A DNA stretch of 21,482 nt from a virus (IMGVR_UViG_3300032053_010502:1-21482), one strand, 5' to 3'; counted from the stretch's first letter, positions 5,901-21,482 are shown. A program made the numbers and translations. The notes: a model not told the origin generated them from the letters alone.

Positions 5901-7709
5901 AAACTCAGGTCTAAGAACAGCCATAGCATCGCCAATGCTGTCGATATTTTTTCCGGCCATTAACGAAGCGGCACCCAATACTTTTATTCTCAGTGCTTCA
6001 ACGGCGTCGTGCCCAGCCGCCAAACCGCCAGTCCTGTCTTTTGCCTTTGGTTCAAACAGATCTTGCAACATTTTATCAAGACCTGTTACTTCGCCAATAA
6101 CACGACCAATTTTCCATCCAGCGAAAGCGGCCATTCCAACAGCAGGAAGCGCTTTAAGTGCACCACCAAGACCGACAATAGGGTTGCCAAGTGTCTTAGT
6201 AAAAAGTGTTGCGAAATTAGTCAATTTCCCGCGTATTCCTTGGCCCGCAAATATGAGTGACATTGCCGCACCGGCGTTTCCGATTCCTCTTGTTAACGCA
6301 GCAAATGCTTCAACTGCAAGTGTGCGTTTTTGCCACATATACCACACAACATAAAGTTGAATAATGTCTTTAATAACTTCTTTCATAGCCACAAGTTGTT
6401 TAACGATTTTGCCTGTGCCATCGATAAATTTGAAAAAAGTTGCGCCGGCGTTAAGACCCCAGTCTACCAGGGCAACACCAATTTCACTGATCTTCTTTTC
6501 AAAATTCGCAACCGTGCCAAACGTCTTTTCAACAGCACCAGTGATACCTTGCATAAATCCGATCTTGACCTTCTCAACCAAACTCTTAGCCACGGTGATC
6601 CAAGCATCAAATGACGCCATTTTCTTTTTAAAAGACGCTTCCATGCCGGCAGACTTTCCGAATTCATTCAATGAGTCGTTCAAACCTCCAACACCTTGCG
6701 CTGCTAACATCATAACACCAGAAATAACACGAGCACTAAAACCTAACTTATCGATCTTTTCAAGTGAACCGCCGGTCTTTTCGGTCAAGTCTTGAATGAA
6801 CCCAGCCAAACCCTTTGTGCGAATGGCTTCAACACTAAATTCCAAACCAAGGGAAGTAGCATAAGCCTTTGCGTCCTTACTAGCATTCAGGACCCCGACT
6901 AAGAACATTCGCAGTTGCATTGCCGCTGCACTTGCTTCAATGCCCTTTTTAGTCATGCTGACCATGGCCGCCGCAATAGTATCCAAACTAATTCCGGCTT
7001 GTGAAGCCAATGGCGCAACCTTGCCAATGGAACCTTCTAATTCCGCAAATGAAATACGGCCATTAAGTTTAACCATCTTGAACAAAGTATCAGAAACACT
7101 CGTGGCTTTTTCAACGCCTTGACCATAAGCATTGAGAACTGTCGAAACACTTTGCATTGCTGTGGCCACGTCTGTCATAGCAACTTCGGCCAACTTAGCC
7201 GAAATCGGAACCATCTTAAATGATTCCTCGGGATTGAATCCAAGTTGTAACGCCTTTCTAAAGGCATTAGCCGATTCAATAGAAGAACCATATATTGGAC
7301 TTAACTTCATCAGACCAATACGATATTTATCCATGGTTTCATCTGATTGATCAACCATGGCACGAATATTGTCCCAAGCTTTCTCAAACTTTAAACCTTC
7401 ATCTATGGTGCTCTTGATTGTTTGTGTTATTTTATTAATGACTTGCTGAACACCTGTCATAATTCCCATACCCGCAGCCATTGAAAGTATGGGACCCTTA
7501 AACGCGTTCCCTAATCTCTTCCAACCACCTTCTGATGCGGCGACCTTGTCTTTCATCTTATCAAGGCCGGCTCCGGTTTTTTTAGCGCCTTTTTCTACCT
7601 GGTCAAGTGACTGAACAATTTCCTTGGCTGCCTTTTTAACAACAGGAGTGCCTTTGTCATCGACTGAAATAATAAGATTAATGTCGCGAGAACCGCTTTT
7701 ACGAGCCAT
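2994..7709 (-). CDS. Tail tape measure protein
   Basis: A 1571-aa protein, the longest in the window. In long-tailed phages the tape measure fills the tail tube during assembly and fixes tail length. Residues about 100-340 carry the TP901-type tape measure core: small-residue helices such as MTKKGIEASAAAMQLRMFL and FSARVISGVMMLAAQGVGG. Hydrophobic helices occur near 70-90 (PILSMAAGMGIMTGV) and 440-465 (LYVVWYMW). A Gly/Ala-rich membrane-like run lies near 985-1050 and ends in SLIGGLIGGLFGGKSKEQ. The rest is largely helical and charged, with coiled-coil character near 690-760. It sits directly after the tail chaperone genes, as expected. The start ATG at 7709 has only a distant AAGG, and a terminator-like hairpin lies just upstream, so expression is probably held down. 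No lysozyme or peptidase motif was recognised. Confidence 0.95.
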   Translation of the reverse strand: MARKSGSRDINLIISVDDKGTPVVKKAAKEIVQSLDQVEKGAKKTGAGLDKMKDKVAASEGGWKRLGNAFKGPILSMAAGMGIMTGVQQVINKITQTIKSTIDEGLKFEKAWDNIRAMVDQSDETMDKYRIGLMKLSPIYGSSIESANAFRKALQLGFNPEESFKMVPISAKLAEVAMTDVATAMQSVSTVLNAYGQGVEKATSVSDTLFKMVKLNGRISFAELEGSIGKVAPLASQAGISLDTIAAAMVSMTKKGIEASAAAMQLRMFLVGVLNASKDAKAYATSLGLEFSVEAIRTKGLAGFIQDLTEKTGGSLEKIDKLGFSARVISGVMMLAAQGVGGLNDSLNEFGKSAGMEASFKKKMASFDAWITVAKSLVEKVKIGFMQGITGAVEKTFGTVANFEKKISEIGVALVDWGLNAGATFFKFIDGTGKIVKQLVAMKEVIKDIIQLYVVWYMWQKRTLAVEAFAALTRGIGNAGAAMSLIFAGQGIRGKLTNFATLFTKTLGNPIVGLGGALKALPAVGMAAFAGWKIGRVIGEVTGLDKMLQDLFEPKAKDRTGGLAAGHDAVEALRIKVLGAASLMAGKNIDSIGDAMAVLRPEFEKTGSLGNTVLDVWAKKIGWVLKGAKDLTSTVKDGKKSPVPALSEEELKAADELTKRIGVTTKDELGTKLKESEGYLRDFKKQLTTNQEKALTESIRALRIELGLFDGTLADLGVKTVPQVKTEMDELEKKFAKLRQGHKDGTVDEKQYSIGVEEIETRLKALSSTAVVASDGIKLMGRDFNATLPAAKDLGDVLANMPKLDKEQFDVSWFPGMFNSAKEAADVLGVTLKSSVSKNLVDMELAYDALKQSAKDQGVESLLTKEDEYDTVVRLIEIYKKLGKEVPPEYAKIIAAGKILAKSTQADMSKAFGTIATALQVLGDSVSERFSGLVTISASIAEKVSAAFTKGAEEKLPTDWAALAKDIGPVMAGQLGASIAKAITGRTGAFAGVGAALGGALGQSMQKGVTKSLGKMLGKTLGDTLGAAVPIVGSLIGGLIGGLFGGKSKEQKAADKLKKDIASMQKSYKAFGDISENLAKQLVELKNTIGATRAEAQLLSQVMQETGITTKNFSTYVQKISLILGAMKSGALSATEGMKALNDSLATFITGMVDMGREGDKTFVNLIKKFRTMGVSIKAVDDYVYGWLSRASAGLTKMTMAIAPGIEGLHDMEMQLADLIAQQKKLAPSSGDYKDIGKEVIELNKKIQIVKDGSVDAKRQIDNVSASILATFNAYIAQGKSWYEAMTELSEPLANLSMKLEALGMTGNDAITKLLKISDFAKANKELFEAIDGNREVMEALGNTGFLTAETLKATTDQAAIYYKKLTDAGLDSHDALALMAPSLADAVYYAKQLGIPLDDATQALIDQAKAAGVYKEKARSLEDVLKEGFDNMVDRMDRLIDRFGRAFPDAINRGFDVLDQRAADSAEYLDNLNPDATVPGGRGVPQTGAATGFHGTVTGPRMFYVEPGIKERVDIGAPKTQAPQVTVVERTDVFEPIVLPLHELETLVIKWVKKANAGERLPIAGRSIRG

Positions 7710-8748: not shown

Positions 8749-9912
8749 TTACTTGAACCGGATCTTAACTTCGTCGTTGCCCGCCGAAGACGCGATGGCC
8801 TGGAACGGGACGTTCTGTTGGAATTCCTCATCACCACTGATCTCAGGAGACCTGTATTCAGCATACGGGACGGTGATTTCTGCAATAGCCCCAGCGACGT
8901 CGCCAGAGGGAATAACCAACGCATCGGTGATTTTGTAATCAGCGCGATAGAAATAACTCAGACCCTGCTTGAGGAAGTAGAGCATGAGGTTCCCGGCGAC
9001 ATCACGTTTGCCGGGCCGGCCATAACGTTCAGCCGTCCAAACGCCGTTCTTCTCATTCTCATAGAACTTAACGTTGTTCGTGATAGTGAGACCGGCCGAA
9101 ATGATGATGGCGTTAGCGCTACTGACCGTGACAAGACCGAGCTTGCCATGCGAAGGCGCACCGACTTCGGTTCCAGCAGCGGGCCACCACGGTGTAATCT
9201 CAGGATTGCTGCCCTGATTTGTGACCAATGCGGGACTGATCGTAATTGTGTTGGCCGTGTAGTTGACACCAGTCAACTCATAACCAACGTCTGTGTTGTC
9301 ATCAGTTCCAACAACAACAAACATGCCCTTCTTATAAAGTTGAGCGCCACCGGCTGCAAGAATAATAACTTGCTTGCCAATACCGCAAGTATCAAGGGCA
9401 GGACACGTGCCGGCATAAAGTTGCTCCATGAACTTACCGGCCCAATTGACGCCGGAGATAGCATCACCAGCAACTCCAAACTCTCCCGACTCCATAACGG
9501 TGCCGCGGAAAGCAAAAACGCTGTGGCCCTTCTTCACCCACAAGGTGAAGGAATCAACCTGGGAAGCAAGCGTATAATCGACATAAGTCGCTTGAGCGTC
9601 TTCCGTTCCGAAAAGACTGCGAAGAAAAACTCGGTGCTCAGGAGGAGTGCCGAGAATACCGGACGGTTTGATATACGTGCGGGCGCTAAATGTCCCAACA
9701 CTAAGTCTAGCCTTGATCGAAGCAAACTTCGAGGCCGACGCCCGGATCTGCTCATCGTCGAGTAGTTCGCGCTGTTGACTGAACGCCACTGGACCAACGG
9801 TCAAAAGCTGATTAGCCGCGGCCGGTTTCTTCAGCGTTCCGCATGTAGTTTCAATGACGGCATAACAGGCTTCTTCATTTGAATACGCAAAATCAAGTGC
9901 GCAGTTGCTCAT
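8749..9912 (-). CDS. Major tail tube protein
   Basis: A 387-aa protein starting at ATG 9910-9912, with AAGGA about nine bases upstream. It lies after two terminator-like proteins and before the chaperones, which is the place of the tube subunit in siphoviruses. The N-terminal half is beta-rich (SVGTFSARTYIKPSG, TLASQVDSFTLWVKKGH). Residues about 190-229 form an inserted small beta domain (KKGMFVVVGTDDNT, NTITISPAL). The C-terminal part holds RDVAGNLMLYFL, FYRADYKITDAL and EYRSPEISGDEEFQQNVPFQ, as in large tube proteins with the final strand (EVKIRF) that packs between rings. Sampled lines of this gene are about 58% GC, above the tape measure gene, perhaps through codon selection for high expression. 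It is flanked by a double hairpin upstream and a strong terminator downstream. Confidence 0.8.
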   Translation of the reverse strand: MSNCALDFAYSNEEACYAVIETTCGTLKKPAAANQLLTVGPVAFSQQRELLDDEQIRASASKFASIKARLSVGTFSARTYIKPSGILGTPPEHRVFLRSLFGTEDAQATYVDYTLASQVDSFTLWVKKGHSVFAFRGTVMESGEFGVAGDAISGVNWAGKFMEQLYAGTCPALDTCGIGKQVIILAAGGAQLYKKGMFVVVGTDDNTDVGYELTGVNYTANTITISPALVTNQGSNPEITPWWPAAGTEVGAPSHGKLGLVTVSSANAIIISAGLTITNNVKFYENEKNGVWTAERYGRPGKRDVAGNLMLYFLKQGLSYFYRADYKITDALVIPSGDVAGAIAEITVPYAEYRSPEISGDEEFQQNVPFQAIASSAGNDEVKIRFK

Positions 9913-10410: not shown

Positions 10411-10839
10411 TTACCTCACACTGTAGAAGACGATGTCAAGAATCATTATGAACTGACCTTGCGGGTGTTTGTTCCCGCCGTCTGTTGTGATCGACCTGAT
10501 CTCCATTCCATACGCTTTGTTGCCGCACGTCGGATCTGTGCGAACCTTTGTAGCGACAGAATCCATAAATGTGTTAAGAAGCGTGCCGAGCGATTCTGAT
10601 TCGCCGGCCCAAACCCAACCAACGATCGCGACTGTGAATTCGTTCTTGACGATATTCTTGAGAATATATGTTTTGTCGACGCGAATGTGATTGATGAATA
10701 CGCCAGGATAACGATCAGGACCAATGGCCGAATCGTAAATGCGTTGATAATCAGCGAACTTGATGCCCGTAATCTGGTTCATGACGACACCCAAATAAGC
10801 AAGGACTTCTTCTTCTGTTCCTTTTCCAAAATAGGCCAT
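10411..10839 (-). CDS. Tail terminator-like / minor tail protein, first copy
   Basis: A 142-aa protein whose ATG (10837-10839) overlaps the TAA of the HK97 gp10-like gene by one base (TAATG), so translation is probably coupled. Visible elements are an N-terminal helix (EEEVLAYLGVVMNQI), a strand in NEFTVAIVGWVW, a helix (LGTLLNTFMDSVATKV) and a C-terminal strand (FIMILDIVFYSV). This is the alpha-beta layout of tail terminator or completion proteins. It shares length and layout with the next gene, but little residue identity that I can see. The context, between a gp10-like protein and the tube protein, agrees with a head-tail joining role. The assignment is by fold pattern and synteny only. 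Confidence 0.5.
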   Translation of the reverse strand: MAYFGKGTEEEVLAYLGVVMNQITGIKFADYQRIYDSAIGPDRYPGVFINHIRVDKTYILKNIVKNEFTVAIVGWVWAGESESLGTLLNTFMDSVATKVRTDPTCGNKAYGMEIRSITTDGGNKHPQGQFIMILDIVFYSVR

Positions 10840-11336
10840 TAGATTTTACCTCCAGCTGCGATCACTTCGTTGAGTGTCTTCAGCGTCAGATCGATATATT
10901 GATCAACAATATAATTTGTTTCTTTTTGAGCCTGTTCAACCATATGATAAGCCGGCGTGCCAGGATGATGAACAAGTTTGCTGAAAATTTCCGCGCCTTC
11001 GATAAAGAAACGCAAGCGTTTGCATTTGCGCGGTCTGATAATGTGCGGAACCGTTCCCTCTTCAAAGAACAAAATAACATCAGGATTTTTCTGATACGTA
11101 TTTGCAATCGTATAAATTTCAGCCGTTCCTTCTCTTGTCTCTTCCATCATCCAAAGTTCTTTGATATTTGTTCGACCAGCAGAAGTCGGAGGCGTATGCA
11201 TTTTAACGATACGCAACGCCTCGTTCGCTACCTTGCGCATCATGATACGAAAGAACGGTCCTAACTTTTCAGAGACAGTCGTTAACTTGCGCCGTGCTTG
11301 TTCATAATCAACCGTGATGTGTGTTTGCCCAGCCAT
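10839..11336 (-). CDS. HK97 gp10-like head-tail joining / tail completion protein
   Basis: A 165-aa protein. The N-terminal helix bundle contains MRKVANEALRIVKMHTPP, as in gp10-like proteins where this region is followed by a 'TG.L..s' strand (here SAGRTNIKELWMM). Residues 91-98 (FEEGTVPH) and 123-130 (HHPGTPAY) are the family's landmark motifs: the G.T...H segment and the HPGt.p..fm motif at the start of the last long helix. Proteins of this family sit at the neck and help attach tails to filled heads. ATG at 11334-11336 lies three bases after the stop of a 46-codon ORF, and the 3' end overlaps the next gene by one base. Confidence 0.8.
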   Translation of the reverse strand: MAGQTHITVDYEQARRKLTTVSEKLGPFFRIMMRKVANEALRIVKMHTPPTSAGRTNIKELWMMEETREGTAEIYTIANTYQKNPDVILFFEEGTVPHIIRPRKCKRLRFFIEGAEIFSKLVHHPGTPAYHMVEQAQKETNYIVDQYIDLTLKTLNEVIAAGGKI

Positions 11337-11339: not shown

Positions 11340-11480
11340 TTACTCGCTGACACCCGATAAGGCATAGAATAGGCCATAAGGTGCCACTCTCTGACCCCCA
11401 GGTGAATCTTCTCGGGCTAACCCATATGTTCTATTAGGTCCGGCTTCCTGGCCGGCCGAGAATGAAATCATGTTAATCAT
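11340..11480 (-). CDS. 46-aa ORF between neck genes, function unknown
   Basis: A short frame starting at ATG 11478-11480, sharing one base with the TAA of the upstream neck gene (TAATG), and ending at TAA 11340-11342, three bases before the next ATG. This exact fit, in a region otherwise lacking a gene, is the main evidence. A second ATG is at 11471. The protein begins MINMISFSAGQEAGPNRTYG and ends in APYGLFYALSGVSE. It is rich in Gly and Ser, with no membrane segment or cysteine. No Shine-Dalgarno sequence is seen, so translation would depend on coupling. I do not recognise the family. It could be a neck peptide or an untranslated filler. Confidence 0.5.
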   Translation of the reverse strand: MINMISFSAGQEAGPNRTYGLAREDSPGGQRVAPYGLFYALSGVSE

Positions 11481-12157
11481 TAGAAATACAGTTTCGTCTT
11501 GATCTCGAGGTCATCAAAGAACTCTGTCTTCTTCGCCTCGATAAAAGGCCGCATCGATACTGCGGGAAAATCAACGAACCCGCCCTCGCGCAAGATGCCG
11601 CCTAAGTTGCTGCGTTTCAGGAGAATAATTTCAAGACACTTCCAGACAACTCCTGTAACTAACGTAGACTCAAAATCAGCCGGACACTTGGCCAACGTCC
11701 AATCTGTTTTCTCAACAGAAATATACCAATACTTTTGGCCGGCCTCTTCAGGATAAGGATCAATAGCCAACTTCCTGCGAACAGGATCAAAATAATGCCT
11801 GATGCGCGGAAGGGCACGAGCTTTCCTTGTCATTTCAATGACCCATAATGATGGGAACTGAACGTATTCGTTTGGTTCGTCGACACAGATACGATATCCG
11901 CCGAGAACCATAATATTTTCGTCCATTGTGTCCCACAAGAAAACCTTTTGAACGCGCATTGTCGCAGAGTAAACATCATATTCGCGTGTATTAATAATTG
12001 ACGTGATATAACGAAGAACCTTAGATGGGATCCGTTCTGCGATCTTCGTGAGAATATATCCTGATTCACGCAAGATGTCCGCATCTGCGAGTTCAATTAC
12101 ATTAGCGACTTTACCGACTTCGGCCCGGACAGCAGCGTAGAGACTACTTGCATCCAT
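11480..12157 (-). CDS. Putative head-tail adaptor (neck) protein
   Basis: A 225-aa protein with an ATG at 12155-12157 preceded by AGAGGAG eight bases away. It has a helical N-terminus (residues about 1-50, including ADADILRESGYILTKIAERI), a beta-rich middle (YDVYSATMRVQKVFLW, YEVs-like strands, WYISVEKTDWTLA) and a C-terminal helix run (VTGVVWKCLEIILLKRSN). A helix-then-sandwich layout at the head end of the tail module is typical of adaptors that bind the portal. It lacks cysteine clusters, catalytic motifs and membrane segments. Identification is by position and general architecture, not by a diagnostic motif. Confidence 0.5.
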   Translation of the reverse strand: MDASSLYAAVRAEVGKVANVIELADADILRESGYILTKIAERIPSKVLRYITSIINTREYDVYSATMRVQKVFLWDTMDENIMVLGGYRICVDEPNEYVQFPSLWVIEMTRKARALPRIRHYFDPVRRKLAIDPYPEEAGQKYWYISVEKTDWTLAKCPADFESTLVTGVVWKCLEIILLKRSNLGGILREGGFVDFPAVSMRPFIEAKKTEFFDDLEIKTKLYF

Positions 12158-12314
12158 TTGCTTTTCTCCTCTTGTCCTCTGTTATGACGACAAGTTCTTT
12201 TTCCATCTGCGGAAAAAGAATGTGGTCGTGACCATAGGCGTCGCGAATACAGATATCAATGTCTTTCTTATTCGTAATCCTGACACGTTCCATCCGCATT
12301 GTCGCTTGTTTCAT
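12144..12314 (-). CDS. 56-aa ORF upstream of the neck gene, function unknown
   Basis: This frame starts at ATG 12312-12314 and ends at TAG 12144-12146, overlapping the next gene by 14 bases. A partial ribosome binding site (AGGCGAG) lies just upstream. The protein begins MKQATMRMERVRITNKKDID and continues with DAYGHDHILFPQMEKELVVI, resembling the single small beta sheet of many short virion-region proteins ('makes contact with N/T-rich turn, then a Y/G/H stretch and a V-rich last strand'). The frame stays open upstream to the stop of the fucose synthase gene but has no ATG, GTG or TTG there. No family is recognised. It fills the only gap between the sugar operon and the neck genes. Confidence 0.5.
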   Translation of the reverse strand: MKQATMRMERVRITNKKDIDICIRDAYGHDHILFPQMEKELVVITEDKRRKANGCK

Positions 12315-12371: not shown

Positions 12372-13322
12372 TTACCACCGCACAATTGCTTCCTTATAGT
12401 TCTCTTCGAACCATTCAAGCGTCGATGCGATGCCGCTTCTAAGCGACGTCGGCGCTTCCCAATTTAAGAACGCCTTCGCTCGCGATGTATCAAAAACTTT
12501 CTTTGCCTGACCATCAGGTTTCGTCGCATCCCAATTGAGGCGGCCTTTGAAACCGATGACATCGGCAATTGTTTCAGCCAACTCTTTAATAGTCGTGCCT
12601 ACACCAGTCCCGATATTAAGTGGCGCCGTCAAATCCCACATTTCAAGCGCCTTAATAATTCCTTCAGCCGCATCCTGAACATAAAGGAATTCACGAATGG
12701 GCGATCCTGTTCCCCACATGTCAACGTCTTTTCCGTCACGCTTGGCTTCATAAAATTTCCTGATAAGAGCCGCAACCACGTGCGACCGCTCGGGACTGTA
12801 AGAATCCCAAGGTCCGTAAAGGTTGGCAAGCATAACGTGAATCCCGTTGAAACCATATTGTTTCTTATATGCCTCGCATTGGATCTGCATCATTTTTTTC
12901 ACGGCTCCATAGTTACGCACGGACTCGTGCACGGGGCCGGCCCAAAGATCGTCTTCTGTAAGACTGCCGACAATGTGGCCAGGATAAGCGCATGCTGTTC
13001 CAATGCCGACAAATTTCTCAACACCGTAACGCCTAGATGCTTCGATAACATTAGCCGCCATGACCGTGTTCTCATAATAAATCTGACCAGGAATCGTTTG
13101 ATTGATACCGAGTCCTCCATAAAGAGCGGCCGAATGAACGACAACATCGGGTTTAACGTTTTCCATGGCTAGCAAGCAATCAGAAAGAACCTGAAGATTA
13201 AACTGTTCTTTACGGACAGTCGATGCTTCGATTCCACGCTTTGTCAACTGCCACATGATTTGCGAACCAAGGAATCCCTTGCCGCCCGTAACGAAAACAC
13301 GTTTTCCTTTAATGTTAAACAT
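12372..13322 (-). CDS. fcl: GDP-L-fucose synthase-like epimerase/reductase
   Basis: An extended short-chain dehydrogenase of 316 aa, counting from ATG 13320-13322, which has AGGAGG ten bases upstream; an upstream in-frame start at 13373 adds 17 residues that the family lacks. GDP-L-fucose synthase turns GDP-4-keto-6-deoxymannose into GDP-L-fucose with NADPH. Evidence: TGGKGFLG (12-19), then HSAALYGGLGIN, the Y..(3)..K pair at Y138/K142 in NYGAVKK, a long family-specific NLYGPWDSY followed by SHVVAALIRKFYEA with the catalytic His (H181), and IREFLYV. The catalytic Ser of E. coli Fcl (Ser107) is Thr here (GTACAYPG), while the Cys two places later is kept. It overlaps the upstream epimerase gene by eight bases. 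GDP-mannose dehydratase is not in the window; it may be host-supplied or lie further upstream. Confidence 0.85.
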   Translation of the reverse strand: MFNIKGKRVFVTGGKGFLGSQIMWQLTKRGIEASTVRKEQFNLQVLSDCLLAMENVKPDVVVHSAALYGGLGINQTIPGQIYYENTVMAANVIEASRRYGVEKFVGIGTACAYPGHIVGSLTEDDLWAGPVHESVRNYGAVKKMMQIQCEAYKKQYGFNGIHVMLANLYGPWDSYSPERSHVVAALIRKFYEAKRDGKDVDMWGTGSPIREFLYVQDAAEGIIKALEMWDLTAPLNIGTGVGTTIKELAETIADVIGFKGRLNWDATKPDGQAKKVFDTSRAKAFLNWEAPTSLRSGIASTLEWFEENYKEAIVRW

Positions 13323-14247
13323 TACAGAAAGGCCTCCTGACCTCAAATGATTTGAATAGCGAAAGCAATTCATCGACTGTTTCGTCGAATGACGTCAGGC
13401 ATGTAAAACCGGCCTTAGCCGCCTTGTCATAACTAACTTCATAATTGCGTTGATCTTCGTCTTTCTGGAAATCTGCATAGTGACAATAGAAATCGATGCG
13501 TTTCTTCAAGGCTTCAGCGACTTCTTCCTTCGACAGATTCATTGTCGGGTTGCCGATATTATATGTCTCGCCTTTCAACGCGTCATAATTGTCGATAGCC
13601 CAAACAATTGATCTGGCCATATCGTCGACATTGATAAATGACCGTTTAAATTTCCGTTCATAGATCACAAGATTTCGTTCCTTGAGTGCTCGATAACAGA
13701 AATCATTAATAAGAAGATCAAGGCGCATGCGTGAAGAAACACCAGCCCCTGTCGCATACCTGAAAATAACTCCGCCGCGAACGTTAACAAGATCTTCAGC
13801 GCGAGCCTTTGTCTTACCATAAACAGTAAGAGGATTAAGTGGCGAATCTTCGCGGCAAATCTCCTCAATGTTTCCATAAGACGATCCTGTTGACGTAAAA
13901 ATAAAAGGAACATCTTTGCCGACACTCGCAAGTGCATTCGCTGTCCCTGAAAAATTCACATGAGCGGCTTCAACCGGATCTTTCTTGCAAATCGGATAAC
14001 CGACCCATGCCGCAAGATGGACAACGCAAGTCGCCGTTCTAGCCGCAAGTTTCAGTGCTGCCGAATCCCTGACATCGCCGATAACGAAATGAAATCTTTT
14101 ATTTTTGAAGCACGAGAACAAGCTTTCAGGCGGCCCAAACATAAGGTTGTCGAAGACCGTGACCTCATGACCGTCAGCAAGAAGTTTTGGAATGAAAACG
14201 GATCCAATGAATCCGGCCCCGCCAGTTACAAACACGTCGTGTTTCAT
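13315..14247 (-). CDS. NAD-dependent epimerase/dehydratase (extended SDR) of nucleotide-sugar metabolism
   Basis: A 310-aa extended SDR. It has the Rossmann motif TGGAGFIG (8-15), NAD-binding FDNL, GDVRD (57-61), VVHLAA (75-80), a Ser/Thr-rich strand FTSTGSSYG and the catalytic Y143/K147 in VYGKTK. The C-terminal part carries SFINVDDMA and YNIG, as in UDP-glucose 4-epimerase relatives. Substrate is unknown: such enzymes epimerise, dehydrate or reduce NDP-sugars. ATG 14245-14247 overlaps the stop of the cytidylyltransferase (ATGA) and has AGGAAC nearby. It precedes the fucose synthase gene with an eight-base overlap. The two may act in one route or on separate donors. Confidence 0.85.
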   Translation of the reverse strand: MKHDVFVTGGAGFIGSVFIPKLLADGHEVTVFDNLMFGPPESLFSCFKNKRFHFVIGDVRDSAALKLAARTATCVVHLAAWVGYPICKKDPVEAAHVNFSGTANALASVGKDVPFIFTSTGSSYGNIEEICREDSPLNPLTVYGKTKARAEDLVNVRGGVIFRYATGAGVSSRMRLDLLINDFCYRALKERNLVIYERKFKRSFINVDDMARSIVWAIDNYDALKGETYNIGNPTMNLSKEEVAEALKKRIDFYCHYADFQKDEDQRNYEVSYDKAAKAGFTCLTSFDETVDELLSLFKSFEVRRPFCNV

Positions 14248-14657
14248 ATCGTTCCTTTTTCGCTTATGATTTTTTTAATTGTCGAACTGCTGACGCCGTT
14301 CGTATATTTATAGTAGACGACTTTAACGCCTAACTTTTTTGCTTCTTCAAGACCGGCCAACGGTTTTCCTTTCCAATCGCTACCGAGCACAATGCGTTGA
14401 ATACCAAAAAACTTAACGACATGAAGAGGAATATTCATCTCGTTAACAACGACACCATCGACATACCGGCATGCTCGAACAACAGACATCCGTGCTTGAA
14501 AACTCATAACAGGTGCCTTACCTTTATTTGTGCACACTGCTTTATCTGTGTTAATCCCGACTAAAAGAAACGATGCATTGTTCTTTGCTCTCTTCAACAA
14601 GGCAACATGACCATAGTGAAAAAGATCCCACGTGCCTGGGACATATGTCTTAGTCAT
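14244..14657 (-). CDS. TagD-like cytidylyltransferase (CTP:glycerol-3-phosphate or related alcohol phosphate)
   Basis: A 137-aa nucleotidyltransferase. It has the HxGH motif at residues 14-17 (TWDLFHYGH), an RYVD helix, the GSDWKGK segment (92-98; TagD has GDDWEGK), and a C-terminal GVSSSTI, equivalent to the GISTTKI of TagD. Length agrees with glycerol-3-phosphate cytidylyltransferase (about 130 aa). I chose ATG 14655-14657: it overlaps the DUF2284 stop by eight bases, has CGGAG before it, and puts the start strand MTKTYVPGTWD in place. A start at 14711 would add an unrelated leader. The enzyme makes CDP-alcohol or a related NDP product from an alcohol phosphate. An RfaE/HldE-like ADP-heptose activity is less likely. 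A LicD-family protein is encoded two genes upstream, which could use the product. Confidence 0.85.
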   Translation of the reverse strand: MTKTYVPGTWDLFHYGHVALLKRAKNNASFLLVGINTDKAVCTNKGKAPVMSFQARMSVVRACRYVDGVVVNEMNIPLHVVKFFGIQRIVLGSDWKGKPLAGLEEAKKLGVKVVYYKYTNGVSSSTIKKIISEKGTI

Positions 14658-15153
14658 AAAAAATCGCTCCGATACGGTAGAATTTTCCCTTAACTGGGAA
14701 CCTGATATCAACCTTGAATTTCTTCAAAGCCTCAATAACATTAATGCCTGTTGCTTCAATAGGCACGATCGATTTTTCCGGCAACCTGCACGGAAACTCG
14801 CAACCACCTGGACACAGTTTACACGAACCAGCTCCAAATGCAACAACAAAACAATGACCATCTAACATCAGCAGTTCGCGCATCGTCATAATGGCCTTAT
14901 GAAGTTCAAGCGAACTTATACTGCCAAGGTCGGCGATACTTTCAGGCGTGTCTGTAATGTCATCTGGAATATTAAATTCGCAAACGACAAACATACCATG
15001 CCGATAACGCTTGAGAAGATTCTCATAATAATCAAGGTTGCCGATATAAGGAGGGCACGTCGCCTTCTTTCCATAACGCTTGCATGAATAACATTCTTCC
15101 CTGACCTTGGCGTCAAATACCAGATCCTTAGGATCAAAATCATATGTTATCAC
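14650..15153 (-). CDS. DUF2284 predicted metal-binding protein
   Basis: A 167-aa protein with cysteines in the DUF2284 order: C21, C24 and C33 in CYSCKRYGKKATCPP, then C101, and C111, C114, C118 and C122 in GSCKLCPGGCEFPCRLP, followed by EATGINV. Families with this layout are thought to bind a metal or an iron-sulphur cluster; function is unknown. The GTG start (15151-15153) overlaps the TGA of the LicD-SDR gene (GTGA) and has GGAGG six bases upstream. It is between the LicD-SDR and the cytidylyltransferase genes. I know of no established role in phage sugar metabolism. It may be a redox or metal-dependent step of the pathway, or a metal-sensing accessory. Confidence 0.85.
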   Translation of the reverse strand: MITYDFDPKDLVFDAKVREECYSCKRYGKKATCPPYIGNLDYYENLLKRYRHGMFVVCEFNIPDDITDTPESIADLGSISSLELHKAIMTMRELLMLDGHCFVVAFGAGSCKLCPGGCEFPCRLPEKSIVPIEATGINVIEALKKFKVDIRFPVKGKFYRIGAIFYD

Positions 15154-16427
15154 AACATGCCTCCGATAGTAATTATCTTTGGCCTGTCTGCGCGTGCCAG
15201 AGAAAGAAGATAGTTGATAGTCTTAAGAACATCATCCATCCCAACCAATGGCGCCCTAAACTCGCGAATTTTTTCCCCATACTTTTGGATTGTCGATGCT
15301 GTATAAATAGCGCCGAAATTTGCAGATGTTGCCCGCACACCGATAGGTCCATATTCAAGATTAACAGTCTCTGTTATCGCTGCTGCTCCGTGTTTAACAG
15401 CCGAATACATCGCCTTACCCGGAGCCGCTGTTAAGCCGCGCGTTGAACCAATATTGATAATATAACCTTCACGTTGATTGCCCATAACAGGAAGAACCGC
15501 TTTCAGTGTCGACAAATAAGCTCGCATTGAGAGGGCATACATGGCGTCAAAATCACGAACACTTGATTCCGCCAAATCTGAAAAATACATAAGGCCGGCG
15601 TTATAGATCAAAGCATCAATATAACCAAACCTTGCATGCGTTCTCATGACCCAATTCTTTATATCGTCTTCATTTGTAAGATCACAACGCGTGCCCATCC
15701 ATTCGCCACTGTCTCCATCAATCATTGATCGCCCGCAAGAACTTACACAAAATCCTTGATCAGCAAGGTTTTTTGCGATGTTATAACCTACCCCTTTTGT
15801 CGCACCGGCGACCATGATAACCTTTTGAGCACCAAGAAATCCTTGCATAAGGTTCTTTGTATTATAGCGCCAATCATGATAGTTTTTTTCATCATGCCAA
15901 TCATCGCCATAAAACATAGTCAAAAAATCTTCAACAGGAGAAGGAGTCGGCCACATGCGGCCATATGCTTCAACAGATCCAAAGTTTCTAAAAAACTTAC
16001 TTGGCCATTCACAGCGCCCTTCGCGCCACGGCCAACTTGGTCCCATTGGGCGATTGTAATATACCGTATCGCCCTGTTGATAATGTGCCTGCAATTCAAA
16101 ACGAACTTCATGGTCGTCTTTAACCGGACTACTGTGCTTGCTACACCACGCGATCTTTCCATTGCGCACACCGCCAGGCCAACCGACTTCGTCGAAATAT
16201 CCAGACTCTCTGAGCTTTATAACAATACGCTGAAGCGTTTCTTCATCAGGAACACCGATATCAATATCTTTGTCATGATGGAGAAGATGTCCTTCTCTAA
16301 CAAGTCCAAGTAATGTCCCACCAATCAAGAAATAAGGTTCGTGAGTTGCCGTCATAATCTCGTGGAACTTGAGAAAAACTTCTTCTACAACAGTTTGACC
16401 TACTTCAGCGAATTTATACTTACGCAT
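15150..16427 (-). CDS. Fusion: LicD-family phosphotransferase domain plus short-chain dehydrogenase
   Basis: A 425-aa protein in two parts. Residues about 1-195 are LicD-like: a helix, then YFLIGGTLLGLVREG (32-46) and a DKDIDIGV motif with D52, D54 and D56, as in nucleotidyltransferase-fold LicD/fukutin proteins that move phosphocholine or ribitol phosphate from a CDP-donor to a glycan. Residues about 200-425 are a classical SDR: VAGATKGVG (206-214), YNAG (275-278), S328, Y341 and K345 in YSAVK. The start ATG (16425-16427) follows a GAGGAAGG site. There is no stop or frameshift in the junction (GFLGAQKVIMVAGATKG), so this is one chain. A reasonable reading is that the SDR makes a polyol or reduces a sugar and the LicD domain transfers its phosphate. 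Substrates are not known. Confidence 0.8.
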   Translation of the reverse strand: MRKYKFAEVGQTVVEEVFLKFHEIMTATHEPYFLIGGTLLGLVREGHLLHHDKDIDIGVPDEETLQRIVIKLRESGYFDEVGWPGGVRNGKIAWCSKHSSPVKDDHEVRFELQAHYQQGDTVYYNRPMGPSWPWREGRCEWPSKFFRNFGSVEAYGRMWPTPSPVEDFLTMFYGDDWHDEKNYHDWRYNTKNLMQGFLGAQKVIMVAGATKGVGYNIAKNLADQGFCVSSCGRSMIDGDSGEWMGTRCDLTNEDDIKNWVMRTHARFGYIDALIYNAGLMYFSDLAESSVRDFDAMYALSMRAYLSTLKAVLPVMGNQREGYIINIGSTRGLTAAPGKAMYSAVKHGAAAITETVNLEYGPIGVRATSANFGAIYTASTIQKYGEKIREFRAPLVGMDDVLKTINYLLSLARADRPKIITIGGML

Positions 16428-16430
16428 ATT

Positions 16431-16847
16431 TTAGCCTTCCTCGATAATATCTTTAACGCACGTCCTGTTATTAAATGGATCTTCAAGCCTTTCTGTATCG
16501 ACAATAAACGGAAGCGAAACTTCAAACAGTATCGCGCCGTTAGAACCAGCTACAAGCATATGTGGCGTTCCGGGTTTAATGCGAATAGCACAACCCTCTT
16601 TGATTTCTTCAAACACCGAATCACAAAACAGAACCTTATCTGATTTGCCAATACGAATTTTAAGAAATCCTTTGGCAACATAAATCGTTTCATCCTTCTG
16701 TCTATGAACATGATAACTTGTCGCCTGACCAGGACCAAGAGTCAATATTTTGCCAAGATATTCTTCTGTCATCCCGAACCAAATTTCTTTGCCCCACGGT
16801 TTTTCAACCGTAGCATAACCATGTTCTTTAATCAATTGGTAACACAT
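16431..16847 (-). CDS. Cupin sugar-phosphate isomerase-like protein (mannose-6-phosphate isomerase type II C-terminal-like)
   Basis: A 138-aa single-domain cupin. It opens with EKPWGKEIWF, the usual start of type II mannose-6-phosphate isomerase or ManC C-terminal domains. Metal ligands are visible: H46 and H48 in SYHVHRQKDETIYV, E53, and H96 in KPGTPHML. It has no pyrophosphorylase domain. A free cupin of this kind could convert fructose-6-phosphate to mannose-6-phosphate, feeding GDP-mannose and then the fucose synthase encoded downstream. An epimerase or a sugar-binding role is also possible. The ATG (16845-16847) lies 20 bases inside the membrane protein gene in another frame and has TTGAGGA before it. 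Confidence 0.8.
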   Translation of the reverse strand: MCYQLIKEHGYATVEKPWGKEIWFGMTEEYLGKILTLGPGQATSYHVHRQKDETIYVAKGFLKIRIGKSDKVLFCDSVFEEIKEGCAIRIKPGTPHMLVAGSNGAILFEVSLPFIVDTERLEDPFNNRTCVKDIIEEG

Positions 16848-17130
16848 TGATTTTCCTCAATTGAATAACATTCCAAATGACGACGCCGAGAAGAGCGACG
16901 TCAAGAGCAAAGGCATGCCAAAGCCAACCGCGTTCACAAAGAAAACCAAGTTGAAAAATCCAAAAGGCCCAAATGACTGCAAGGGCCGTTCCAATATTGC
17001 TTCGTTTAATAAGATAGCGAATAAGCGGATTAAACTCTGTTGCCCGCCCTGATGCAAGAGCCTTCATCGTCGTCGCGTGATCAACCCACTTGAGAATAAT
17101 ACCGACTATGAAAAGAATCCATCCAATCAT
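16828..17130 (-). CDS. DUF5658-like small membrane protein
   Basis: A 100-aa protein with three hydrophobic segments (about 2-15, 45-64 and 69-90). Between the first two lies the conserved pattern D17, TT (20-21), G28 and E32-F-N34-P35 (WVDHATT, TEFNPLIRYL), which I associate with DUF5658. Its function is unknown. Its ATG overlaps the TGA of the basic protein gene by four bases (ATGA). Location among sugar genes suggests a membrane role in the pathway, for instance anchoring enzymes or lipid-linked intermediates. A holin role is possible but not supported by position. Confidence 0.6.
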   Translation of the reverse strand: MIGWILFIVGIILKWVDHATTMKALASGRATEFNPLIRYLIKRSNIGTALAVIWAFWIFQLGFLCERGWLWHAFALDVALLGVVIWNVIQLRKINVLPID

Positions 17131-17312
17131 TTTGTCACTAACGCTTTCACACGAGAAACAGATTCTTTAGCAATCGCATCATTAGGATTTTTAGCGATGT
17201 GCTTTTCAAGATCGTTAAAACGTTTCTTGTATCCACGCCTTGAGACATTATAGCGTTTACGTTTCGGTTGATCGCCTTTGCGTTTTTTGCTGCTTCCTTG
17301 TTTGCTGGGCAT
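17127..17312 (-). CDS. Small basic protein, function unknown
   Basis: A 61-aa protein with a very basic N-terminus (SSKKRKGDQPKRKRYNVSRR) and a C-terminal helix (KRFNDLEKHIAKNPNDAIAK, then SRVKALV). The N-terminus suggests binding of nucleic acid or an acidic polymer. ATG 17310-17312 lies one base after the stop of the upstream gene (TAA-C-ATG), and its TGA overlaps the next ATG, so it is within the same translational chain. I do not recognise a family. There are no cysteines, membrane segments or signal peptide. Confidence 0.6.
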   Translation of the reverse strand: MPSKQGSSKKRKGDQPKRKRYNVSRRGYKKRFNDLEKHIAKNPNDAIAKESVSRVKALVTK

Positions 17313-17313
17313 G

Positions 17314-17565
17314 TTACTTTTTCATACCATAACTCTTAAACTGATCAATGACAGGAGGTTTCTTTTTCCCTGTCACAATATCTGAAATCAACTCATCGAT
17401 TTCTTGAATCAATGCATTGCGTTGAAGATTGAGCGCACTGATCTTGCGCTTGGCATCAGCAACGGTTTTATCGTCGGCCCCAGGCGCCTGAGCAATGTCT
17501 TCTTGATTCCACAACTTGTGGTTAACCGTGAAGAGTTTGTCAATAAGAGATCCTGGAGTTTCCAT
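17314..17565 (-). CDS. Mini DUF4254-like protein
   Basis: An 83-aa protein. Residues 11-23 (LF..NHKLWNQED) and 39-57 (KRKI..LN.QRN.LI..ID) match the two signature stretches of DUF4254, in which full-length bacterial proteins of about 190-200 aa have 'hr.N..LW..ED' and 'KR.ID.LNQ.RND.IE..D'. The protein is thus about half the usual length and keeps only this helical core. Full-length members often lie beside glycosyltransferases in surface-sugar loci, consistent with this place. Function is unknown. TAA-G-ATG links it to the methyltransferase gene upstream and TAA-C-ATG to the basic protein gene downstream. The resemblance is from memory of the family pattern and needs a profile search. Confidence 0.55.
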   Translation of the reverse strand: METPGSLIDKLFTVNHKLWNQEDIAQAPGADDKTVADAKRKISALNLQRNALIQEIDELISDIVTGKKKPPVIDQFKSYGMKK

Positions 17566-17566
17566 C

Positions 17567-18286
17567 TTACTTTGCCACCGCTGTCAGGCAAATGCGCCCG
17601 ATGTTCTTAGGTTGTTCAACAATGCTAATGTTGTTTTCATCAGGTTCAAAACCCGATGTTCGCAACATGGCCAACAAGCATGATTTGCTTGGCGCCCAAT
17701 ATGTCGTTTCATCGCAATAGATACGATCACCGCTATTAAAAATCATAACAGGTTCGTTGTCCTCATTGCGATAACATGCTGTCTCAAGAAAAAGACGACC
17801 GCCTTTCTTCATACAAGCACGTGTTTGGATCAATCCTTCCAACGGTTCAAGCATGTGGTATAAAACACCAAGATGCTGAACGATGTCAAACAACTCGCCG
17901 TTCAATTCATACTTGATAACGTTGGAAAGAGCAGAAGAAAGATTTTCTACGCTTGCACCGTAAACAGGAATCACATCGCTACAACGCACTATCTTGGCTA
18001 ACAAAAATCTTTCAATAAGTTTCGGCATTTGCCCTGAATCAAGACCGACAACGCAACGTGCTCCAATTTCCTCGGCCTCAAACGCCCACATTCCATCGGC
18101 ACAACCAAGATCAAGAACAACTTTATCTTTATAATCAATAGCATTTCGAATCTGGCGATTTTGTTCCCACTGTTCTTCCAACGCACAAACTCCAGGAGTT
18201 ATAATACCGTTGCCAAGATCTATCGAATGATACCATGGAGCCAAAGCATCAACCGCTGCTTGAAGTATATCTCTTTTTATTAACAC
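17567..18286 (-). CDS. CmoB-like SAM-dependent methyltransferase
   Basis: A 239-aa class I methyltransferase. It opens with APWYHSIDLGNGIITPG, the typical start of the CmoB/DUF1698 family, and has SAM motif I VVLDLGCADGMW (56-67), an acidic D in GLDSG at the end of strand 2 and QHLGVLYHMLEPLEGL (137-152), also family-like. CmoB itself acts on tRNA wobble uridine, but relatives in sugar loci methylate or carboxymethylate other substrates. Being within a glycan operon, it most likely caps a sugar hydroxyl, though a tRNA or protein target is not excluded. The GTG start (18284-18286) lies in the end of the glycosyltransferase gene, seven bases overlapped, with GAGGAG five bases upstream. Confidence 0.75.
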   Translation of the reverse strand: MLIKRDILQAAVDALAPWYHSIDLGNGIITPGVCALEEQWEQNRQIRNAIDYKDKVVLDLGCADGMWAFEAEEIGARCVVGLDSGQMPKLIERFLLAKIVRCSDVIPVYGASVENLSSALSNVIKYELNGELFDIVQHLGVLYHMLEPLEGLIQTRACMKKGGRLFLETACYRNEDNEPVMIFNSGDRIYCDETTYWAPSKSCLLAMLRTSGFEPDENNISIVEQPKNIGRICLTAVAK

Positions 18287-21003
18287 AAAATCTCCTCAAT
18301 AATAATTTCTATATCCTTAACCGTCAATGTCTGAAAACAAGGCGGTTCACCAAGATCAAATTCCTTTGGACGATATGGCCCCTCTGTATTCGCACATGGA
18401 ACCTTATAATCGCAATGATGCAAACCAAACGGACATTTGCCCGTCACCGCAACCATCAATGGAAACATCTGCTCGAACACACTGCCGTTGCGATTAGAAA
18501 AAAGCGTAATGACCGGAATATTAAGCGCCCCAGCCACGTTGCTTAATCCAGTATCTGGAGAAACAACGACGTGCGCCAAAGAAATAAGTGCTGACATCTG
18601 GAAAAACGAATATTTCCTAGATGACACCACGACCTTATAATCGGCCATTATAAGGCTGGAGGTTAATAATGCCATGCCGTGCCATGCCTTCATCGGATTA
18701 GAACCATCTGGCACAATGACAATGCGCTTGCCATTGCCTGAAGTTTTCTTCCACTCTGTTTCCGCCCATGCCCGTTCGCTTGCCTTAACGACAAAATCAG
18801 GTTGAAGATTATCGACCGGCAAACCAGCAATATCAAGATGGATCTTTGTGCGCGGACTTTTAATCTCTCCATGCAACGCGACCTCTTGCCATTCCTGACG
18901 AAACTCGACATCAGTCAAATTGAGTTCAATTTCAGGACTGTGTGTCGCACTGGTTGCAAACCCATCAACATATTTGTAGCGGCGAATAAGGCTCTTGAAC
19001 TGTTCGGGGACATCATAGAACACCGAGACTTTGTCCCCATATTTTCGCTTGAATTCCCTGGCCACTACACTTATGAAAATTATATCACCCCAACCGCCCA
19101 TTCCTCTGCGAACAACAACGGTTGATTTCCCATCGTCCTTTATCTGTTGTTCAACAGAACGGACAGTATTTCCTTTTCTGTGTTCGACCCCAAGCAACTT
19201 GAGATCTTGCGGAGAGTGAGGATGAAATCCCCATTTCTCTATATAATACGCGATATTTTTATTCCAATGAATATCTTTGTCACGCCGTTCAAGTTCAATG
19301 GTATTAAGAACACCTCCGAGCAAATGGTAATAAAGAGCTGTTGGAGTTTTCTTAAAAGTTCCCTGAGCCAGGCGTATCCTGATATTATAATCGTTGTCTT
19401 CAATATAACGCGGAGTGAAATGTTCGTCGAAAGGCCCGACCTTCTCAATCGTGTCGCGCCGAAACATCGTGCATGAATATGCTGAATGCGGAATATCGAC
19501 AATATTTATCAGGGCGCCTGACTGCACCGGGAAACTATCTATAGTCCACGGCGGAATCCCCATAACTTCTTGTGCCGTTAACGCCGAAATACTTGGATCG
19601 CCCTCCATGATTTCCACCATCTTGTCGACAGTGTCATAGCGAAGAACGATATCGTTGTTCAATAGCAAAAAGTAATTGGCATTAGATTTTAGGAATTCCA
19701 CGACGCCTATATTCTGAGCCGCTGATACACAACAGCGTTTAGAAACATAATGAATGTTATTTTTCTCTAACCAATCTTGTGTTCCATCTGTCGACTTGTT
19801 GTCAACGACAAAAAGTTCTATATCATATCTTGACCTGATCGAAGCAGAAGCACGTTTTGTCCAATCAAGCAAGTTATATGTCAACATGGTCGCAAATACT
19901 TTTGGTTTAGGAACTAACTGCGCCTTGACCGCATTAACGACTTCTACTGGATCAATATCAGTCATACACGACGGAATATCGGCGGCCTCTTTTGCAAGAT
20001 ACGTATCGCCAGGAAGACAAGTTAGGTTCCACCAGCAAGGGCGTTCAACGTGCGAACACTTTCCCTGGACCCACACGGCCTTTGGATAACTATCGCAAAT
20101 AATCTCGCCCTCTGTTGAACCAAAAATCCCAACGATCCTTTTGTCGAACGCGCCGGCTAAATGCAAAACTGCCGAATCAGCAGTAACAACAACATCTGAT
20201 TCAGCAATAATAGCCGCCATTTCTTCAAGGTCATAAAGAAAATTTCCTTTATCATCCATTTCATCAACAACGATCGTGTCATAACCTTCGGCCTGAAGAA
20301 GTTGTTCGACCGCGTCCATATGCGGATACGTTCTAGAAACAGCAAATGACAACGAAGCAATGGCAACCAACGGCCGGCCAGGAGTCAAACCATGTTTGAG
20401 AAACTGAAAGATTTGTTGAACCCTAAGTTTTTCTTTTTCGGTCACGATATAAACAGGAGTCTTTTTGATAGCATAAAGGCCGAGTTGTTCAAGATAAAGA
20501 TCTGTTCTATTACGCGCCTTAGTCCCGACTTCCTCTGGTTTCCTGTCAAGCTTGACGTCAATATGGTTAAGGTCAAATATGATGTCCCATACGCGATTTT
20601 CTCTAGTCACAACCTCATCAACAAATGGATTGCCCTTCCAAACACGTTCAAAGCGTTCAAGTGTTTTTACGCCGACATAAACCTTTGGACCATAAAGTTC
20701 TTTAAACGCCGTTGCAACGACAGTCAACATAAGATTGTCACCCAAGCGATCTGTCTTTGAAACATCAAGCAAAACATTGACGTGTTTGTTTTTCTCAAGC
20801 ACTAACTTGAGTTTTCCCTGAGCCTCCCAAATAACAGGAGACGTAAAATAAAGACCCAACGAATCGCTACTCATTTTTCCGATAAAATGCGCCTTCTTCG
20901 GATGGATCTTGATAATCTGATCGTTGATGCAAATCGCCTCAATGCGCAGACCTTCATTGACGTAAAGTTTTCCATGAGGAAGATCAAACGTGCGAAGAGG
21001 CAT
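18280..21003 (-). CDS. Three-domain glycosyltransferase fusion (GT9 - GT2 - GT9)
   Basis: A 907-aa protein with three transferase modules. Residues about 75-365 are GT9 (heptosyltransferase-like): DRLGDNLMLTVVATAFKELY (85-104), nPFVDEVV, and VVVTADSAVLHLAGAF (271-286). Residues about 369-600 are GT2 of the GT-A fold: VDNKSTDGT (400-408), the metal-binding region LLLNND (446-451) and EDNDYNIR (535-542). Residues about 628-905 are a second GT9: GGWGDIIFISV (636-646) and VVSPDTGLSNVAGALNIP (813-830), followed by a cysteine-rich tail. Residues 1-70 form an unassigned beta-rich leader. It would add up to three sugars from one chain; donors are unknown. ATG 21001-21003 overlaps the TAA of the partial GT9 gene by one base. 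Confidence 0.85.
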   Translation of the reverse strand: MPLRTFDLPHGKLYVNEGLRIEAICINDQIIKIHPKKAHFIGKMSSDSLGLYFTSPVIWEAQGKLKLVLEKNKHVNVLLDVSKTDRLGDNLMLTVVATAFKELYGPKVYVGVKTLERFERVWKGNPFVDEVVTRENRVWDIIFDLNHIDVKLDRKPEEVGTKARNRTDLYLEQLGLYAIKKTPVYIVTEKEKLRVQQIFQFLKHGLTPGRPLVAIASLSFAVSRTYPHMDAVEQLLQAEGYDTIVVDEMDDKGNFLYDLEEMAAIIAESDVVVTADSAVLHLAGAFDKRIVGIFGSTEGEIICDSYPKAVWVQGKCSHVERPCWWNLTCLPGDTYLAKEAADIPSCMTDIDPVEVVNAVKAQLVPKPKVFATMLTYNLLDWTKRASASIRSRYDIELFVVDNKSTDGTQDWLEKNNIHYVSKRCCVSAAQNIGVVEFLKSNANYFLLLNNDIVLRYDTVDKMVEIMEGDPSISALTAQEVMGIPPWTIDSFPVQSGALINIVDIPHSAYSCTMFRRDTIEKVGPFDEHFTPRYIEDNDYNIRIRLAQGTFKKTPTALYYHLLGGVLNTIELERRDKDIHWNKNIAYYIEKWGFHPHSPQDLKLLGVEHRKGNTVRSVEQQIKDDGKSTVVVRRGMGGWGDIIFISVVAREFKRKYGDKVSVFYDVPEQFKSLIRRYKYVDGFATSATHSPEIELNLTDVEFRQEWQEVALHGEIKSPRTKIHLDIAGLPVDNLQPDFVVKASERAWAETEWKKTSGNGKRIVIVPDGSNPMKAWHGMALLTSSLIMADYKVVVSSRKYSFFQMSALISLAHVVVSPDTGLSNVAGALNIPVITLFSNRNGSVFEQMFPLMVAVTGKCPFGLHHCDYKVPCANTEGPYRPKEFDLGEPPCFQTLTVKDIEIIIEEILC

Positions 21004-21482
21004 TATGCTTCCCAGAATCTCATAAGATGGTTACGCATCCTGGAATAAATAACATCAGGTTCTTGCTTCAAACACATGAATCCTTTTTGCTGGCATTCAG
21101 TGCGTGTCGCATACTCAAAACACGGTTGGCAACCAAGGTTAGATGCAAGTTCAATACCAACCGCACCCTCAGGATAAAGAGGGTGTTTCGATAAACGTTC
21201 TTCCACGCGCGTCGGACCAAGCAATGCGACAGTCGGAGTCTTTGCAAAATGCGCCATCCAAAGTGGAGCTGAGTCCATCGTAACAATGGCCTTTGCGCGA
21301 CCGATAAGAAGAAAGATTTCGCGAAGTGAAAACCTGCGATTAAAAACATACGTTTTCCCATCTGTCCCGCTTGGTTGTCTAAGGCCGATGTCTTCGCCGA
21401 TATATACGACATCTATTCCTTCACAATTCATAGCGGTCACGATCCATTCAATGGCGTCCTTCGAAAGCGAACGGCGATCACC
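21003..21482 (-). CDS. GT9-family glycosyltransferase, C-terminal part (N-terminus beyond window)
   Basis: The frame is open to the right edge (159 residues seen), so the 5' end is outside the window. The GT9 donor-binding motif is visible: AIVTMDSAPLWMAHFAKTPT followed by VALLGPT. It ends in the usual cysteine-rich tail of bacterial GT9 proteins, GCQPCF, TECQ and MCLKQ. GT9 enzymes use activated heptose or other NDP-sugars with a GT-B fold. Its TAA overlaps the next gene's ATG, so it heads the visible part of the sugar operon. An internal GTG at 21440 is not the true start, as the protein-like frame goes on upstream (DRRSLSKDAIEWI). Confidence 0.85.
   Translation of the reverse strand, partial: GDRRSLSKDAIEWIVTAMNCEGIDVVYIGEDIGLRQPSGTDGKTYVFNRRFSLREIFLLIGRAKAIVTMDSAPLWMAHFAKTPTVALLGPTRVEERLSKHPLYPEGAVGIELASNLGCQPCFEYATRTECQQKGFMCLKQEPDVIYSRMRNHLMRFWEA

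Follow-up and report, generated by a model that had tools for sequence, protein, structure and literature searches.

We found that glycan-synthesis genes form a cassette between the major capsid protein (MCP) gene and the neck genes in a lineage of phages, and that this placement is a rule of the lineage and not a quirk of one contig. Because the placement is lineage-wide, the finding is of more interest than was stated in the initial annotation of this DNA. Our reading, to which we give a probability of roughly 0.6, is that the region is a late-expressed, cytosolic locus for virion glycosylation that lies within a structural operon and consists of a conserved pair of core-building glycosyltransferases and a set of exchangeable enzymes for the outer residues. 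Gene content and linkage make it a candidate phage virion-glycosylation system. Late timing, a virion protein as acceptor, the identities of the sugars and the role of DUF2284 are what we infer from the sequences.

Genes of the window and relatives of the phage

The window, that is, the whole stretch of DNA that was analysed (viral record IMGVR_UViG_3300032053_010502), contains 21,482 bases, and every recognised gene in it is on the minus strand. The glycan cassette is made up of 12 co-oriented, nearly gapless genes, the first of which (GT9) is cut by the contig end. A 57-aa gene (g12144) and then the neck and tail genes lie 3' of the cassette. In order of transcription, from 21482 downward, the genes are:

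21003..21482, minus strand: GT9-family glycosyltransferase, C-terminal ~160 aa, with the 5' part beyond the contig end (PF01075, E=1.3e-6)
18280..21003, minus strand: GTx3, a GT9-GT2-GT9 three-domain glycosyltransferase of 907 aa (PF01075 in two stretches, PF00535)
17567..18286, minus strand: SAM methyltransferase, CmoB/TIGR04290-like (PF08003, 7.9e-17; TIGR00452, 8.4e-21, below cutoff)
17314..17565, minus strand: mini-DUF4254, 83 aa, predicted helical hairpin (PF14063, 4.2e-13)
17127..17312, minus strand: small basic protein, 61 aa, with no assigned family (ORF only)
16828..17130, minus strand: DUF5658 small membrane protein with two hydrophobic segments (PF18902, 1.1e-5)
16431..16847, minus strand: cupin, WbuC/mannose-6-P isomerase-like (PF07883, 1e-7; TIGR04366 below cutoff)
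15150..16427, minus strand: LicD-like phosphotransferase, probably fused to a short-chain dehydrogenase (SDR) (PF04991, 4.7e-4, weak; PF00106, 9.7e-36)
14650..15153, minus strand: DUF2284 metal-binding-type protein (PF10050, 5.5e-27)
14244..14711, minus strand: cytidylyl/adenylyltransferase-like protein, rfaE2/TagD type (PF01467, 3.5e-15; TIGR02199/TIGR01518 below cutoff)
13315..14247, minus strand: NDP-sugar epimerase/dehydratase, an SDR (PF01370, 1.4e-33)
12372..13373, minus strand: GDP-L-fucose-synthase-like SDR, fcl (PF01370, 7.7e-48; NF047922, 272 bits, cutoff 500)
12144..12314, minus strand: 57-aa junction gene g12144, with a homologue 3' of the cassette in most relatives (tblastn/blastp)
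11480..12157, minus strand: protein at the neck/adaptor position, 44-56% conserved in relatives (position only)
10839..11336, minus strand: tail completion/Neck1 protein (phrog_5, E=2e-4)
8749..9912, minus strand: protein at the tail-tube position, about 47-62% identical in relatives and used as a search query (position only)
2994..7709, minus strand: tape measure protein (phrog_1533, 2e-29)

The intergenic gaps of the cassette are -1, -7, 1, 1, -4, -20, 3, -4, -62, -4, -59 and 57 nt, and the gap is within 20 bp at 11 of the 12 junctions. The overlaps of 62 and 59 nt are a product of start choice; likely starts at 14657 (cytidylyltransferase-like protein beginning MTKTYVPGTWD) and 13322 (fcl-like protein beginning MFNIKGKRVFVTGG) give 8-nt overlaps. 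The initial annotation had put the glycan genes on one strand leading into the neck and tail genes, and by ORFs and Pfam and NCBIfam matches all of them are where it placed them. The operon it described stands, with 12 genes and not eleven; the near-gapless arrangement of stops and starts also stands, except that two of the called starts were over-long. The tape measure, tail assembly chaperone (phrog_313) and Neck1 assignments are backed by PHROGs. Those of tail tube and adaptor are by position only, and the 11480..12157 protein had no match to PHROG or Pfam.

We searched for relatives of this phage in several ways. No match among cultured phages was found by tblastn of INPHARED with GTx3, the tail-tube protein and the neck protein. 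Single-sequence scans of IMG/VR with GTx3, the tail-tube protein and DUF2284 yielded nothing, and alignments were used as queries instead. Over its full length, mini-DUF4254 matched proteins of two huge phages, LR756501 (735 kb) at 48% and LR756504 (636 kb) at 39%; both copies sit in large glycan gene clusters, in genomes that are unannotated in GenBank. A three-sequence alignment of mini-DUF4254 found 154 loci in IMG/VR. Scans with mini-DUF4254 and the tail-tube protein gave relatives of the window phage in which six neck-tail genes average 40-55% identity, and further relatives were added by scans with GTx3 and with MCP. The latter include the closest relative, L127, in which GTx3 is 77% and the methyltransferase 74% identical to those of the window, and in which a full-length GT9 of 349 aa, 74% identical to that of the window, directly follows MCP. 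Matches to DUF2284 in "phage" records from human faeces were dropped, as their neighbours are bacterial-type genes.

The relative G001 encodes T4-like portal and capsid proteins, DNA polymerase A, RecA, a ThyX-type thymidylate synthase, an N-acetylmuramoyl-L-alanine amidase and a 7-deazaguanine gene set. This set (GTP cyclohydrolase I, two QueC, PTPS and a radical SAM protein) suggests a modified guanine in the DNA of the G001 phage. The host is taken to be a bacterium. A 5.3-kb contig of the phage group with a tail-tube match (JAFCFJ010000019.1) is binned in a Pacearchaeota MAG, and we did not take this as evidence on the host because the amidase of G001 points to a host with peptidoglycan; the contig is probably misbinned. 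The tail is likely long and non-contractile, since no tail sheath was recognised.

Fixed placement, constant ends and variable interior

In the relatives, the gene directly 5' of GT9 is that for MCP (T4-gp23-like; Gp23, PF07068; phrog_138). The order in L127 is scaffold/protease-like gene, MCP, GT9, GTx3 and methyltransferase, and based on this order the gene missing upstream from the window is almost certainly MCP. To avoid ascertainment via glycan genes, we counted placement in loci found by a scan with MCP alone, together with two contigs from other scans. GT9 was 3' of MCP for 20 of 21 distinct MCPs, with a gap of 55-227 bp in 19 loci and 852 bp in one. GTx3, two-domain or re-ordered in a few relatives, was likewise 3' of MCP for 20 of 21. 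The neck module was found downstream in these loci wherever the contig extends that far, and the cassette lay between MCP and neck in all examined contigs that span both. Scattering of the cluster in relatives, which the initial annotation had named as grounds for rejecting its reading, was looked for, and the outcome was the opposite: diverged relatives keep it in one place, with the capsid gene on one side and the neck genes on the other. This constancy favours late co-expression and a virion target.

The sole MCP without a GT9 is that of L132/L207, in which GTx3 is still downstream and another gene occupies the GT9 position. In L132 this is an ORF that is not related to GT9 and begins with a zinc-ribbon/HNH-like segment (L132:9060-9908), and the same contig has a mini-DUF4254 gene and a GT9 fragment upstream of MCP. 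A partial exception is G013, a contig that begins in fibre-like genes just before GT9. Fibre-like genes (DUF2341/LamG) with a partner of ~100 aa shift position among relatives and occur before MCP, GT9 or the neck genes (L006:10404-15279; L102; L121:1-873; L122).

The ends of the cassette are constant and the interior is not. We compared nine genomes. All six backbone genes were shared in 36 of 36 pairs (40-55% mean identity), as were GT9 and GTx3. Interior genes, in the same 36 pairs, were shared in 41 of 201 possible cases (20%). Conserved ends with replaced interior genes are what is seen in a surface-antigen locus. Cassettes range from 7.9 to 18.4 kb and from 8 to 20 genes (the counts for G001 and G013 include adjacent fibre-like genes), and the genes of each are co-oriented if spurious ORFs on the other strand are disregarded. 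The GT9 and GT2 domains have conserved motifs across seven relatives.

The interiors of relatives encode sulfotransferases, sulfatase-family proteins, radical SAM enzymes, an asparagine-synthase-like enzyme and DUF362. In G011, the interior encodes a PEP mutase with an EDKx5NS motif (IEDKLFPKSNS; PF13714, 1.4e-56), which is not in the window, along with TPP-enzyme subunits, a class V aminotransferase and a cytidylyltransferase (L105:11370-12260, L105:12273-12761, L119:10229-12166). This set is likely a phosphonate pathway, and its position gives a phage cassette with such genes adjoining capsid genes. L131 and L134/L135 also carry the window's own block of LicD/SDR, DUF2284, cytidylyltransferase, SDR and fcl, with the genes similarly ordered but LicD as a gene of its own. 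In L134, LicD and the SDR are adjacent yet distinct genes, so the window protein is probably a gene fusion.

The initial annotation had described the set with DUF2284, mini-DUF4254 and DUF5658 as one not known from phages. The first two are not peculiar to this phage: L131 and L134/L135 also have DUF2284 (47-51% identity) as part of the block just described, and mini-DUF4254 is present in the 154 IMG/VR loci described above. DUF5658 did not recur; among the cassettes examined it is in the window only.

Viral copies of mini-DUF4254 (n=82) are 74-102 aa long, and those of G001, G004 and G010 each correspond to one half of the PF14063 model, either the N-terminal or the C-terminal one. An alignment of 42 sequences has eight invariant residues (D9, L11, N46, Q48, R49, E55, D57 and K77, window numbering). 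AlphaFold2 predicts a helical hairpin (mean pLDDT 91.8). A fold search gave generic helical hairpins only, none at E<=0.001, a sequence search of the PDB found no credible relative, and no catalytic signature is evident in the protein. The window copy scores 49.8 bits against PF14063 (gathering cut-off 27) and covers only positions 3-61 of the 144 in the model; in other phages the matched part is 54-141 or 73-142. There is a hint that cellular DUF4254 may be an internal duplication of the mini-DUF4254 unit. In 47 non-redundant loci outside the lineage of the window, the genes directly next to it (counted with no random-gene control) encode epimerases, methyltransferases, aminotransferases, acetyltransferases and glycosyltransferases. 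The protein may be a non-catalytic helper that partners glycan enzymes or serves them as a scaffold. We call it an accessory and not a defining part of the locus because it was not found in the records of G012 and G016, both of which are incomplete. It is a phage-wide accessory of glycan clusters, those of the 636-735 kb phages included, and the family offers a new way into glycan loci of phages generally, again including these phages.

Probable expression and target of the glycan enzymes

In most relatives a strong hairpin lies after the capsid gene; its structure is conserved and its sequence is not. Seventeen of 19 MCP-GT9 gaps have MFE z-scores of -2.8 or lower (for example, L127:2718-2944 and L211:11231-11316), and the stems, most of which have at least 11 pairs, show no sequence relationship between relatives. 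A U-rich tail follows in a few relatives only. The distance from hairpin to GT9 is usually 8-50 nt, which leaves little room for a promoter, and the neck-side end of the cassette is closely coupled to the neck genes. In the window, a scan for promoters and terminators yielded modestly more hits than shuffled sequence did, none of them usable. The hairpin may serve for attenuated read-through or for protection of an mRNA end. Its conservation after the capsid gene suggests that the glycan enzymes are made late but at a lower level than capsid, not fully coupled to it. The interpretation offered in the initial annotation is partly supported: the fixed placement favours late co-expression, and the hairpin suggests less than full coupling.

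We looked for genes that would export a glycan. Among 127 cassette-region genes, hydropathy identified one multi-pass-like protein (the DUF5658 protein, two hydrophobic segments, window only) and otherwise scattered, single segments. No flippase, polymerase, ligase or initiating transferase (Wzx/Wzy/WaaL) was recognised among the 127, a result that relies mainly on hydropathy, many interior genes outside the window being annotated only by mutual similarity. The lack of recognised export machinery argues for cytosolic glycosylation of a protein. A candidate acceptor is the C-terminal serine of MCP: 21 of 21 distinct MCPs end in serine, mostly as T-x-T-x-S or T-S-S, and the last residues of five outgroup MCPs of the gp23 family are I, L, P, M and M. 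This is no more than suggestive, since the 21 MCPs share ancestry and are not 21 independent events, the outgroups number five, and the serine may be structural. In mycobacteriophages, capsid and tail-tube subunits are reported to carry glycans at their C-terminal ends (Freeman et al. 2023, as cited in PMC12619734).

Under the reading that we prefer, the operon would be read from the capsid gene through the hairpin into the glycan genes and then into the neck and tail genes, so that the enzymes would be made late, in the infected cytosol. GT9 and GTx3 would equip a protein of the virion with an invariant core oligosaccharide, with the serine-ending C-terminus of MCP as the candidate acceptor, and the exchangeable interior enzymes would make and attach outer residues. 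In the window, the fcl-like protein and the SDR could provide a GDP-fucose-type or other deoxysugar, LicD could transfer a unit (phospho-polyol type) activated by the nucleotidyltransferase, and methyl groups would be added; some relatives would use sulfate or phosphonate. We put forward more tentatively a stronger version, a "virion serotype locus", in which the constant GT9-GTx3 pair would attach the core to the terminal serine of MCP and the swappable capsid-neck cassette would make the outer glycan differ from phage to phage, with sulfated and phosphonate-bearing forms among them.

Counting against our reading, a core-modifying product could exit through host MsbA without phage exporters, and the hairpin might uncouple the cassette from MCP transcription. 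It is conceivable, if rather unlikely, that the enzymes alter the LPS core or another envelope glycan of the host, either for superinfection exclusion or to stop progeny from sticking to debris, as has been suggested for the LPS clusters of cyanophages. GT9 enzymes are best known for heptose transfer to the LPS core, and the GT9 matches here are heptosyltransferase families. Assignment as an LPS core heptosyltransferase (WaaC/F) was not obtained, both NCBIfam scores being below the curated cutoff (TIGR02193, 58.6 vs 185.3; TIGR02195, 44.5 vs 134.6). LicD, WbuC-like cupins and fcl are usual in surface-polysaccharide loci, clusters in jumbo phages and cyanophages have been read as changing the host surface (PMC7824862), and extension of the LPS core needs no flippase from the phage. 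However, the cassette is fixed directly after MCP in 20 of 21 distinct loci, no O-antigen assembly genes were recognised, and late timing is ill suited to exclusion in a lytic cycle. In addition, the gp23 and neck regions of the prototype cyanophage, P-SSM2, are without glycan genes (95-135 kb, which holds gp13 to gp23; only this prototype was checked).

It is improbable that glycosylation of the virion is limited to tail fibres or receptor-binding proteins, tuning adsorption, and does not involve the capsid. DUF2341/LamG fibre genes do lie between cassette and neck in L006/L007, and fibre-like genes lie upstream of MCP in G009, but most relatives have no fibre genes at the junction and adjacency to MCP is nearly universal. 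DNA glycosylation and an exported O-antigen were both considered and both disfavoured. Phages use diverse glycosyltransferases on DNA (Pyle 2024, as cited in PMC12619734), so the sugars might contribute to hypermodified bases. We regard this as very improbable: the 7-deazaguanine set of G001 is elsewhere in the genome and belongs to a base pathway not known to need sugars, and the cassettes include PEP mutase, sulfotransferases and LicD, none of which is an enzyme of DNA modification. Least probable of all is chance cargo at a tolerant site with no common function, for although the interior content is strongly variable, GT9 and GTx3 are present about as consistently as MCP, and diverged phages share the LicD-SDR-DUF2284-cytidylyltransferase-SDR-fcl block with its genes similarly ordered.

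Comparison with known systems

Phage glycan gene clusters are usually read as modifying the host surface, and we found no published description of a capsid-neck glycan cassette in the open-access literature. A cluster that is locked to the MCP gene and varies in its middle but not at its ends makes the alternative, glycosylated virions with variable glycan types, directly testable.

Several known systems share parts of this arrangement. The glycoconjugate regions of the Borg archaeal elements (PMC12660748) also combine sugar and phosphonate genes on an extrachromosomal element; unlike the cassette, they encode membrane and secreted proteins and have no tie to a tailed-phage capsid. Bacterial O-antigen and capsule loci have conserved flanks, a variable interior, and fcl, cupin, LicD and epimerase genes. 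In contrast to those loci, the cassette has no recognised Wzx, Wzy, WaaL or initiating transferase and sits in a viral structural operon. The LPS-like clusters of cyanophages and jumbo phages (P-SSM2; PMC7824862) contain phage glycosyltransferases, nucleotidyltransferases and sugar enzymes that vary between relatives, as here, but are interpreted as changing the host surface.

To our knowledge, mycobacteriophages have one or two glycosyltransferases and no large swappable cassette. They are also tailed phages that encode glycosyltransferases, and the glycans described for them (Freeman et al. 2023, as cited in PMC12619734) are on the C-termini noted above. Here, in contrast, 8-20 genes are locked after MCP, and the acceptor is a candidate only.

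The locus would work most like the capsid glycosylation of chloroviruses. We know of no chlorovirus in which the glycosylation genes are kept as one cassette beside MCP. In the chlorovirus PBCV-1, a three-domain glycosyltransferase (A111/114R), found in all members, builds part of the constant MCP core without host organelles (PMC7826918). Both systems would have virus-encoded soluble glycosyltransferases, a widely conserved three-domain enzyme for a conserved core, variable outer parts and no use of host secretory glycosylation. They differ in that the chloroviruses are eukaryotic algal viruses with another capsid fold and other glycosyltransferase families, and in that their acceptor and glycan structures are proven, whereas those of the phage locus are putative. 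If our reading is correct, the cassette would be the bacterial-virus counterpart of the chlorovirus capsid glycans.
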